DNA of 5,873 nucleotides from Chloroflexota bacterium (GTDB lineage Bacteria > Chloroflexota > Anaerolineae > Anaerolineales > Anaerolineaceae): the NCBI GenBank assembly GCA_012800995.1, contig JAAZIH010000036.1, forward strand, positions 1-5,873, read 5' to 3'. Each line of letters opens with the position of its first letter. Positions within the stretch are counted from its first letter, which is position 1. A model generated the notes under the pieces. It was not told the origin of the DNA, did not search any database, and was given only the letters and a program-made list of their open reading frames with translations. Of this stretch, positions 2,637 through 4,356 are shown piece by piece. The position numbers and the translations under genes were made by a program.

Positions 2637-3971
2637 CTATTTCAGCATTTCCCATGTCGGATTCTGTTTTGAACCAACACGCCTAATATAGCCTTTATCT
2701 CCAAGAGAATTCAATGCTCTTTGAACCGTTCTGACAGTTTTAGAAATCTTATTGGCAATTTCTTCTCTTGAAGAATCCGGTTTTTGTTTTAAAATGGCAT
2801 AAACTGCTTTTTCTGTTCCATTCAAAGTGACATCCAAAGTGACATCCAAAATGTCACTTTGAAACTGCGGACGATAGATTATAAATTTGAAACCGTTCTC
2901 TTTGTTTTCGTAAAAATACCTGATTCCTGAATCTTTACACAAACTATCTATTCTTTTAAAACCGCTTCCAAACTGCTCTATGTATTTGCTCAAGTACAGG
3001 ATTTTTGCGATTGTTGGATTTCTTATCTCAGATTCCACATTGCCCTTTATATATTCTTCCGGTTTATGTCTACTCGCATAATCTCCGGGGCTATATATGG
3101 TTATCATACTCGGATGAATACATATCTCATGATTGGTTCTGCTTCCATACATAGCGTGAGCAAAGCTATTTGCCAAAACCTCTCTTATCACTGCAGTCGG
3201 AATTTCAGGAATCTCACTTCTTTCCGATTCAATAATTTCAATTTTCCATCGTATATTTTTAAAAATGTAATCTTCTGCCTTCTTTAATAGATTGTAAACA
3301 TTATCCTCATATAATTTCATATCAAGAATTGTTAACTTTTCATCCGTTGCGAATATACCAACCCTCAACGAAACAGGTCTTGTATCTCCAAAGAGAACCT
3401 CACCGGCGTTTGTCAAATATTCCCCCTTAACAAGACCAAATCTATTTAATATGATTGGGCTGGTATACCTGCCTTCAGGTAATCTTCCGACAGTTATTGC
3501 TTTTTGCCAAAAAAGCTTTATTGCCGGCTTATCCACTTGTTTTGATAAAGCATCAGATTTTTCGTTTTCCCATTTTGTGCGATATTTATTTGCCTCAAAA
3601 AAATTTCTCAATTCATCAGGACTGACTTCTCTGTCTTCATCGGCAGTTCGCAAGTAGTATTTGCCCGCTGCAGAGTATGGTTTGCTATCACCACTGAATT
3701 CAACCTTTATCAATTGCTTACCGTCTATCACAACTTCATCAATGGCAGGATATATTTGCGGCTGAATACTCTCATAAACCGCTCTTGAAACATCCCTTAA
3801 AGACGATTCCGACACATTCTGTCCAACAACATCACCATTGTTTTTGACCCCGAAATACAATGTGCCAATACCATGTTTATTTAATATGGACGCTATGGAA
3901 ATCATCGCTACTTTTATCTCGCTCGTTGATTTTTTGAATTCAAGAGTTTCAGTTTCTTTTCCAAAATTCAT
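2637..3971 (-). CDS. Schlafen AlbA_2 / HATPase-like / winged-helix putative transcriptional regulator
   Basis: This is a complete 444-aa protein of the COG2865-like type (putative regulators, often annotated as RecG-like or ATP-binding). Residues about 6-125 form the AlbA_2 (Schlafen) domain, with ETETLEFKKS (6-15), GTLYFGVKNNGDVVGQN (36-52) and KPYSAAGKYYLR (97-108). Residues about 255-345 match the HATPase_c_4 region: AVIREVLANSFAHA (260-273), ITIYSPGDY (290-298), RNPTIAKILYLSKYIEQFGSG (317-336, given as RNPTIAKILYL + SKYIEQFGSG). The common HRDY motif is altered to HAMY. A tandem DVTLDVTL linker (376-383) leads into a winged helix (385-444) with SKTVRTVQRALNSLGDKGYI as recognition helix. 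The start is ATG 3971, with AAGGAG 11 bases upstream and an in-frame TAA at 3989-3987. The gene is AT-rich (14 G+C in bases 3241-3300, against 38 in 4501-4560 of hrcA), which suggests acquisition. Nucleic-acid binding is the family expectation; the target is unknown, and autoregulation is inferred from the repeats. Confidence 0.9.
   Translation of the reverse strand: MNFGKETETLEFKKSTSEIKVAMISIASILNKHGIGTLYFGVKNNGDVVGQNVSESSLRDVSRAVYESIQPQIYPAIDEVVIDGKQLIKVEFSGDSKPYSAAGKYYLRTADEDREVSPDELRNFFEANKYRTKWENEKSDALSKQVDKPAIKLFWQKAITVGRLPEGRYTSPIILNRFGLVKGEYLTNAGEVLFGDTRPVSLRVGIFATDEKLTILDMKLYEDNVYNLLKKAEDYIFKNIRWKIEIIESERSEIPEIPTAVIREVLANSFAHAMYGSRTNHEICIHPSMITIYSPGDYASRHKPEEYIKGNVESEIRNPTIAKILYLSKYIEQFGSGFKRIDSLCKDSGIRYFYENKENGFKFIIYRPQFQSDILDVTLDVTLNGTEKAVYAILKQKPDSSREEIANKISKTVRTVQRALNSLGDKGYIRRVGSKQNPTWEMLK
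2821..2863. repeat. Intragenic triple repeat (core AAGTGACA) in the AlbA_2 gene
   Basis: CAAAGTGACAT occurs at 2823-2833 and again at 2835-2845 (a 12-bp tandem unit), and its inverse ATGTCACTTTG follows at 2851-2861. The outer pair extends to perfect 13-bp arms, 2821-2833 against 2851-2863. The inner pair gives 11-bp arms with a 5-base gap, so two mutually exclusive stems are possible in the mRNA. In the gene's frame the tandem units encode DVTL twice (residues 376-383), in the linker just before the winged helix. The same core occurs three times upstream of this gene (3990-4035), and one copy shares a 12-mer with it. Confidence 0.85.
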
Positions 3972-3982
3972 TATCTTCTCGT

Positions 3983-3988
3983 CTCCTT
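3983..3988 (-). promoter_or_regulatory. Ribosome binding site of the AlbA_2 gene
   Basis: AAGGAG on the minus strand lies 11 bases upstream of ATG 3971, slightly longer than the usual spacing. It is the best Shine-Dalgarno match near this start. The stop of the possible upstream small ORF overlaps it. Confidence 0.6.
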
Positions 3989-4166
3989 ACCAAAGTGACA
4001 TTATAGTACCACGAAGTGACACTTTTGTCACTTCGTTTTTTTCCGAAAGAGTAACCTGCTCAATCATGTCATAATCGGCATTTCCCTTTGTCTCCCATGT
4101 CAAAAATATCTGAATAATTGGCAAGTTTTCGACTTCGACCTTTGTAAAAGACCTGAGAAATCCCAT
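3987..4166 (-). CDS. Possible small ORF (59 aa) upstream of, and in frame with, the AlbA_2 gene
   Basis: An ATG at 4166 opens a 59-codon frame ending in TAA at 3989-3987. The stop is followed by five sense codons and the ATG of the AlbA_2 gene in the same frame, and the AAGGAG of that gene lies directly after this stop. The protein begins MGFLRSFTKVEVENLP and continues through IIQIFLTWETKGNADYDMIEQ to IMSLW. It has a protein-like composition but I recognise no family. No Shine-Dalgarno is visible at its ATG, and an upstream in-frame TAA lies eight codons before it. Its last 17 codons contain the operator-like array and the -10 box proposed for the AlbA_2 gene. It may be a real small gene, the 3' remnant of an older gene, or chance. 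Confidence 0.28.
   Translation of the reverse strand: MGFLRSFTKVEVENLPIIQIFLTWETKGNADYDMIEQVTLSEKNEVTKVSLRGTIMSLW
3990..4035. promoter_or_regulatory. Operator-like array at the AlbA_2 promoter (three AAGTGACA cores)
   Basis: A perfect palindrome has arms CGAAGTGACA (4012-4021) and TGTCACTTCG (4026-4035) around the 4-base centre CTTT. A third copy, CCAAAGTGACAT, lies at 3990-4001. The palindrome covers the expected -35 region and the third copy covers the end of the -10 box and the probable start of transcription, a placement typical of repressor sites. The same core is repeated at 2821-2863 inside the gene. The AlbA_2 protein is the obvious candidate ligand through its winged helix, but that is inference. 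Confidence 0.6.
4000..4005 (-). promoter_or_regulatory. -10 box of the AlbA_2 gene
   Basis: A perfect TATAAT reads on the minus strand at 4005-4000, 28 bases upstream of the ATG at 3971. A -35 box at 17-bp spacing would fall at 4028-4023, inside the palindrome, and is a poor match (ACAAAA). GTGACA further upstream gives a 20-bp spacer. A weak -35 could mean dependence on, or control by, a factor bound to the palindrome. Transcription would start near 3993. Confidence 0.5.
4012..4042 (+). terminator. Terminator-like hairpin with T7 tract on the plus strand
   Basis: The 10-bp perfect stem (4012-4021 with 4026-4035), its CTTT loop and the seven T at 4036-4042 have the form of a Rho-independent terminator for plus-strand transcripts. 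No plus-strand gene lies before it, so it would only stop antisense transcription across the AlbA_2 gene. The same palindrome is more simply explained as an operator for the minus-strand promoter; both roles are possible. Confidence 0.35.
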
Positions 4167-4316: not shown

Positions 4317-4329
4317 TAAATTGAGGATT

Positions 4330-4356
4330 TTAGCACTCTCAGTCCGAGAGTGCTAA
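4330..4356. promoter_or_regulatory. CIRCE operator (HrcA binding site)
   Basis: TTAGCACTC (4330-4338) and GAGTGCTAA (4348-4356) are separated by nine bases, a perfect match to the CIRCE consensus of 9-N9-9. It lies between the predicted transcription start and the hrcA ATG at 4371. It would be bound by the HrcA dimer, whose folding depends on GroEL in the systems studied, and released on heat shock. In the 5' leader it can also form an RNA hairpin. Confidence 0.97.

Follow-up and report, generated by a model that had tools for sequence, protein, structure and literature searches.

An operator-like repeat shared by the promoter and the interdomain linker of an AlbA_2 regulator gene in a Chloroflexota bacterium

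The regulator gene and its two octamer arrays

We analysed a 5873-base stretch of DNA from a Chloroflexota bacterium (contig JAAZIH010000036.1, hereafter the window), which carries a minus-strand gene for a 444-residue regulator with SLFN_AlbA_2 and HATPase_c_4 domains and a C-terminal winged helix-turn-helix (HTH), presumably of the COG2865 type, a label carried over from an earlier sequence-only reading of the same DNA. Copies of the octamer AAGTGACA/TGTCACTT lie in two arrays, one over the predicted promoter of the gene and one within the codons of the linker that precedes the HTH. The features, with the basis of each in brackets, are the following.

2637..3971, minus strand: regulator gene, 444 aa, SLFN_AlbA_2 + HATPase_c_4 + linker + winged HTH (open reading frame, Pfam)
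3624..3956, minus strand: SLFN_AlbA_2 domain, residues 6-116 (Pfam and family search)
2895..3125, minus strand: HATPase_c_4 domain, residues 283-359 (Pfam)
2823..2861, minus strand: linker QSDILDVTLDVTL, residues 371-383, site of the intragenic array (model confidence, codon freeze in 8 genes)
2685..2828, minus strand: winged HTH, HTH_36 match, residues 382-429, predicted DNA reader (Pfam)
2852..2859, minus strand: intragenic half-site 1, AAGTGACA, codons of S372-D373 (octamer search)
2837..2844, minus strand: intragenic half-site 2, TGTCACTT, codons of V377-T378 (octamer search)
2825..2832, minus strand: intragenic half-site 3, TGTCACTT, codons of V381-T382 (octamer search)
4026..4033, minus strand: promoter half-site 1, AAGTGACA, holding the predicted -35 hexamer GTGACA (4031-4026) (octamer and promoter search)
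4014..4021, minus strand: promoter half-site 2, TGTCACTT, in the predicted -35/-10 spacer (octamer and promoter search)
4003..4008, minus strand: predicted -10 hexamer TACTAT, 17 nt from GTGACA (consensus match only)
3993..4000, minus strand: promoter half-site 3, TGTCACTT, core of the exact 12-mer ATGTCACTTTGG (4001-3990) (octamer search)

The octamer occurs six times in the window, compared with a mean of 0.20 and a maximum of 2 in 200 dinucleotide shuffles. An exact search places three copies at the promoter and three within the gene, just where the sequence-only reading had put them, and finds no seventh; the 12-mer ATGTCACTTTGG, which that reading had reported from both arrays, is likewise present without mismatch on the minus strand at 2834-2845 and 3990-4001, and copies with a single mismatch lie at 2822-2833 and 2851-2862. 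In minus-strand direction the two clusters share the order AAGTGACA, TGTCACTT, TGTCACTT, that is, one copy followed by two inverted ones. The inverted pair is spaced by 4 bases in the promoter, and in the linker by 7 bases when measured by the octamer and by 5 when measured by the 9-mer AAGTGACAT/ATGTCACTT, so that the proposed gap of 4-5 bases fits by the latter measure. A direct copy follows each pair, 13 bases later in the promoter and 4 bases later in the linker, and the centres of the two clusters are about 1.17 kb apart.

The predicted promoter matches 9 of the 12 consensus bases, and its -35 and -10 hexamers are surrounded by the three half-sites, the third of which lies two bases past the predicted -10; an alternative -10 register, TATAAT at 4005-4000, was noticed by eye. 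On the plus strand the promoter palindrome is followed by TTTTTT (4011-4036) and resembles an intrinsic terminator. This candidate was rejected and the operator reading preferred, since the T run after the palindrome is missing in the related genes L001 and L003.

All three domains of the regulator score above their Pfam cut-offs, with 1.2e-18 and 68.2 bits (cut-off 25.3) for PF04326 (SLFN_AlbA_2), 1.7e-10 and 41.2 bits (cut-off 26) for PF13749 (HATPase_c_4), and 4e-8 and 33.4 bits (cut-off 25) for PF13730 (C-terminal winged HTH). The RepA_N domain (PF06970) is absent from the five Pfam families that the protein matches. In an AlphaFold model, residues 371-381 have a predicted local distance difference test score (pLDDT) below 50 between confident blocks on either side, as have residues 1-116 of the same model, and the linker joint is predicted to be flexible. 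The best PADLOC match (6.6e-7) is to a SIR2-pAgo-associated model over residues 219-364, followed by CasR/CARF models over the HTH. A search of the PDB with the regulator found no relative at E 0.01, and the Rfam search gave no match at gathering scores.

Conservation of the linker codons and distribution of the site

The intragenic array is conserved at the DNA level. In a codon alignment of eight related genes (the window gene, L001-L006 and L091, the others being 74-91 % identical to the window gene and L006 being truncated), the array codons S D V T L V T L are identical at 217/217 same-residue pairs, against 5260/9102 (58 %) in the rest of the gene. None of 431 thirteen-codon windows surpasses the linker in codon identity, and the joint chance of the eight array codons under the codon use of the gene itself is about 6e-6. 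Residues S372, D373, V377, T378, V381 and T382 are conserved at 90 % or more in 42 homologues, even though they lie in the stretch with pLDDT below 50. A half-site encodes SD when read in one orientation and VT when read in the other; 96/120 homologue linkers contain a single SD and two VT. To judge from their peptides, P0008, P0081 and P0102 have SD at the place of a usual VT, and P0012 lacks SD and has VT three times. Flips of this kind would alter the peptide and leave the DNA half-site in place. The codon freeze suggests that the linker copy matters today, in whatever manner.

Within 200 nt upstream, the relatives L001-L003 (90-91 % identity) carry four exact octamers, besides three in the linker; L006 carries three upstream, and L004 and L091 one each. 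The sequence-only reading had proposed counting the 12-mer across the genome, and had named a common octamer as a finding that would refute it. The octamer is not common: the host genome (1,377,344 bases, 81 % complete) has 19 copies versus 23 for a reversed control. Of the 19, six belong to the window and three to the linker of a second AlbA_2 gene (contig C64), and ten are single. The exact 12-mer is present only twice, both times in the window, a count that rests on inspecting all 19 octamers, since each 12-mer includes the octamer. The second gene (L277, 2564-4021 of contig C64 in genome G000) carries three direct AAGTGACA copies in its linker (TQSDTQNDTQSD...), and its cross-talk with the window regulator is possible.

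We also searched nine genomes, mostly draft bins chosen for holding a relative, with the paired-site pattern AAGTGACAN{2,14}TGTCACTT. The pattern gave 15 matches in 8/9 genomes and its reversed form none, and by their coordinates all 15 were assigned to the promoter, the linker or a remnant of the regulator gene, so that at this stringency we see no second target. Sites at the promoter or linker were found in G000, G400, G401, G402, G403, G405, G769 and G771, with further ones ahead of a truncated copy (G400, contig C37) and in a downstream remnant (G405); the paired site was not found in genome G404. A genome-wide regulon for the octamer, which we also considered, is not supported, given 19 copies against 23 for the reversed control and a paired site confined to the gene in the nine genomes searched.

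Some copies are rearranged. In L006 (2939-4116, from a bin labelled Oligoflexales) the operator array is fused to about codon 100 and most of the AlbA_2 part is missing; the linker array is intact, and past the stop codon lies a remnant that includes a third array (QSDKNVTLNVTL). The truncated extra copy in G400 (contig C37, 93311-94001; L113, L279) matches residues 1-210 and retains the promoter operator pair, and a full copy is present in the same genome.

The regulator gene, with 36 % G+C, is an AT-rich island among neighbours of 49-50 %. The segment 2521-4370, between an 835-aa open frame and hrcA, has a G+C content of 34-39 % versus 49-50 % on both sides and is likely an acquired island. 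Relatives at 83-91 % identity come from bins labelled Clostridiaceae, Christensenellaceae, Oscillospiraceae and Oligoflexales, and by eye the open frames beside L002 and L004 resemble neither each other nor those of the window. The gene thus looks horizontally acquired, which fits a self-contained gene that brings its own control. A viral contig scan gave no relative of the regulator, and among plasmid and phage records the searches yielded 24 and 12, respectively, none of them reaching 60 % identity; two of these regions were inspected. Ahead of hrcA, at 4329-4355, we noticed by eye the inverted repeat TTAGCACTC-N9-GAGTGCTAA, which we take to be the classical CIRCE element expected for an hrcA-grpE operon.

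Promoter and linker sharing in other subfamilies

In order to see how far promoter and linker agree elsewhere, we scored related genes from genome searches, the linker being located by a hidden Markov model and the score being the number of linker bases covered by 10-mers common to the gene's own 200 upstream bases on either strand. All other windows of the same size within each gene served as control, and mismatched promoter/linker pairs as a second one; genes whose upstream sequence was shorter than 120 nt, or for which no linker was parsed, were left out of the counts. Clustered at 70 % identity, the 197 genes form 142 clusters, 11 of which, including that of the window, have 14 or more linker bases covered, where 0.89 clusters would be expected from the other windows, although 11/142 is not an unbiased rate, as alignment A1, used for later gene collection, held known positives. 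Mismatched pairs gave a mean of 0.43 and at most 3 in 200 shuffles. Taking the best member per cluster inflates the observed count; averaged over cluster members it is 8.8 versus 0.56 expected. A first version of the test gave 11/111 clusters against 0.77 expected. Nine of the 11 positive clusters surpass every other window of their gene, whereas L218 and L224 do not, and these two, together with L213, are AT-rich and less certain. If the cut is set instead at 11 bases or more, with no other window of the gene scoring as high, 11 clusters again qualify, L049 and L097 among them.

The shared sequences differ between subfamilies. Promoter and linker have in common the 23-mer ATGGCACCGATCATGGCACCGAT in L050 and the 18-mer GTTGGGAATAAAGTTGGG in L057, and the shared repeats encode VGLN in L131 and KAQN in L111. 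The shared motifs are GTCGGTTTGAAT in L131, ATGGCACCGATC in L050, GTTGGGAATAAA in L057, TCGATAAATGAT in L114 and L099, TAAAGCGCAA in L111, AAAGTGGGTG in L135 and AATGTCG in L049. A 14 by 14 matrix of promoters against linkers, built from chosen positives, is near diagonal, and its largest off-diagonal values are those of L114/L099 (same motif, same cluster) and L056/L135 (near-identical recognition helix). In L246 (genome G938, contig C10) the promoter carries three tandem TTTTCTGGTTG at an 11-nt step and the linker one 16-nt inverted copy, so sharing occurs without a tandem linker too. The gene L265, on a Mycoplasmopsis arginini plasmid (44 % identity in alignment A2), repeats GTGAC/GTCAC in promoter and linker and uses GTC for 4/4 linker valines, versus 4/34 valine codons elsewhere in the gene. 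Its neighbours on the two sides are type I restriction S and R genes, and the plasmid matches H4 and H6 likewise touch annotations of type I R genes; such regulators may often lie in restriction loci.

With the codon conservation, the paired site private to the gene in the nine genomes and these parallels in other subfamilies, the operator-like array first seen in the window as common to promoter and linker has gained indirect support, and the autoregulation with an intragenic site that the sequence-only reading suggested is supported in part. The broader expectation that linker DNA matches its own promoter across this type of protein stands for a minority (11/142 clusters at 14 bases or more) and fails as a general rule, 28 of 36 tandem-repeat linkers being unmatched by the criterion given below.

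A probable private autoregulator and its alternatives

We consider it probable, judging from sequence, that the product of the window gene is a private autoregulator, with a winged helix that would recognise a single operator present twice, in promoter and linker DNA. One DNA stretch would then serve as protein code and control switch. We infer that the regulator itself would bind both arrays, that its binding at the promoter would repress and that the linker copy would add to this repression. Bound to the promoter array across the predicted -35 and -10, it would halt RNA polymerase and repress its own gene, while the linker array, 1.17 kb off and directly before the HTH codons, would raise the local concentration of repressor through a loop; a cooperative oligomer on both arrays, looping about 1.2 kb, would be the most likely way. 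In a close alternative, transcription would be blocked at the linker, with transcripts ending before the HTH.

Several observations weigh against this proposal or its extension to other genes. The eight genes of the codon test are mutually related; L005, 74 % identical to the window gene, is without an exact octamer upstream; and in the second AlbA_2 gene of contig C64 the upstream stretch inspected holds no octamer. The coverage of L265 is 11, below that of another window of the same gene (20). Non-matching members with a score of 0 (L005, L042, L053, L212 and L217) are included in positive clusters. In a second sample of 45 newly scored genes, 38 formed 31 new clusters, none of which reaches 11 bases (0.44 expected), and seven fell in old clusters: L295 and L296 in positive clusters, both matching (37 and 23 bases), and five in negative ones, none matching. 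Tandem 12-nt linker repeats are present in 36/111 clusters, of which 8 match their promoter, compared with 6/75 without tandem repeats. The remaining 28/36 do not match by the criterion used (coverage of at least 11 with fewer than 0.5 % of other windows as good, or of 10 with none elsewhere), a criterion that also excludes the Mycoplasmopsis gene, whose repeats are visible by eye. We inspected 34 unmatched repeat-bearing genes, 26 of them from the 28 and eight hand-picked. A 9-mer repeated in the linker matched any flank in 8/34, and within 200 nt upstream only in the AT-rich L224; in 28/34, no frame of at least 100 codons ends in the 100 nt upstream, so that the lack of a match is not accounted for by operon position. 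Finally, over 120 pairs of 16 genes, which were chosen positives and relatives, motif sharing did not follow HTH identity (rho 0.07, p 0.45), and its correlation with identity over the remaining protein was weak (rho 0.20, p 0.03).

A covariation of HTH and motif as proof of the binder is thus not supported by these 120 pairs; the same-motif pairs with similar recognition helices, L056/L135 and L003/L265, are explained equally well by overall relatedness. A general law for the whole family was likewise rejected on account of the 0/31 new clusters and the 28/36 tandem linkers. Promoter/linker sharing is a property of certain subfamilies, and from this it would follow that the tandem linker as such also needs some further cause, e.g. 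slippage or a role of the peptide.

Autorepression might also act at the promoter only, the linker copy being a leftover or an operator donor (copying keeps operator and HTH matched) with no present role. This is unlikely in our view. The promoter array does span the predicted -35 and -10, and by eye the arrays in the promoters of L050, L057 and L114 show the same 12-nt spacing as the codon repeats, which copying from the linker would produce; yet a dead copy would not have its operator codons frozen at 217/217, and L091 and L004 retain the full linker array with promoters of one exact octamer each. We regard as very unlikely a role in the mRNA, where the inverted pair of the linker would fold as a hairpin that acts on translation or termination ahead of the HTH. 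Compared with its shuffles, the linker RNA folds better (z -2.65, 0/200), as does the promoter stretch taken as RNA (z -4.12, 1/200); the test is informative for these two window stretches only, as the L131 stretch held part of the linker and that of L111 missed it. A hairpin leaves the third, direct copy unexplained, and the P0102 peptide implies all three half-sites in one orientation. We hold the RNA role to be the weaker reading because the promoter pair, at the predicted -35 and spacer, should escape transcription, and other subfamilies use mainly direct repeats, as the linkers of L131 and L111 do.

It could also be that the tetrapeptide repeats are selected as protein and that the likeness to the promoter is chance or codon bias, a view that draws on how common tandem 12-nt linkers are (36/111 clusters) and how often they lack a promoter match (28/36). 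We give it hardly any credence: the linker codons are frozen, the within-gene and mismatched-pair controls speak against chance likeness, and the SD-for-VT swaps, known from protein sequences only, would keep the DNA half-site and change the peptide. For the window subfamily the peptide explanation is disfavoured, and for the non-matching majority it is possible. There is a slight chance that another factor binds both arrays, e.g. a host regulator, or a methyltransferase or restriction enzyme seeing GTSAC. The Mycoplasmopsis homologue between type I restriction genes would suit such a factor, as would HTH identity that is not tracked by motif sharing; however, the paired site is confined to the regulator gene in the nine genomes searched, and a single outside factor does not fit the other motifs borne by other subfamilies.

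Among known systems, COG2865-type AlbA_2/HATPase_c_4/HTH proteins have the same domain order as the window regulator. E. coli PurR is an autoregulator with one operator near its promoter and one within its gene, the arrangement proposed here; in such PurR-type cases the operator is not known to be an interdomain linker with frozen codons, nor are operators known to differ between paralogues. Our literature search found, among the matches listed, no operator function of this kind for COG2865-type proteins and no transcription regulator whose linker is its operator, most subscription journals being outside its scope.

By analogy, the closest precedent would be replication initiators of the RepA_N and lambda O kinds, with binding sites within their own genes. 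As described in the excerpted text of PMC5703833, the Rep protein of the staphylococcal plasmid pSK41 binds four Rep boxes within its own gene that encode the linker between two domains, and Rep without the linker still works in trans and can rescue replication. The likeness lies in a winged-HTH protein whose binding boxes, in its own gene, encode an interdomain linker; the putative binding array here fits in its placement, and the window regulator is likened to RepA_N initiators and not classed with them. The pSK41 site is a replication origin, for which the same excerpts describe no promoter copy, whereas the window array is operator-like and present in the promoter too. According to excerpts of two further papers, the repeats bound by the lambda O initiator (ori-lambda) map inside gene O (PMC5043065), and the p42d oriV lies inside repC, where silent changes in the A+T-rich region abolish function (PMC3155836); lambda O and the repABC RepC, with sites in their own genes as proposed here, are both replication initiators and not transcription regulators. 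RGG-motif RNA-binding proteins, in the portion of PMC11789052 available, bind G-quadruplexes formed by their own coding RNA, so that the coding sequence is a ligand of its own product as in the proposed design. There, as far as that portion goes, the level is RNA and the repeated peptide binds, while in the window regulator a separate HTH would bind DNA.

Returning to the private autoregulator, the sequences allow a wider and more tentative idea, to which we give somewhat less than even chances: self-addressed regulators may form a class of bacterial transcription factors in which the interdomain linker is the operator cassette, linker DNA and HTH would move as a unit of about 250 bp, subfamilies would have private operators, and one sequence would be selected both as flexible peptide and as binding site. 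Among transcription factors, a regulator of the proposed kind would be the counterpart of replication initiators that have binding sites inside the genes encoding them, and it would account for the repeated tetrapeptides in some of the linkers. The operator of an uncharacterised regulator could then be read directly off the gene itself, and a mobile gene would have a testable way of taking its control site with it. If true, the self-addressed design would keep paralogues and horizontally moved copies insulated within one genome.

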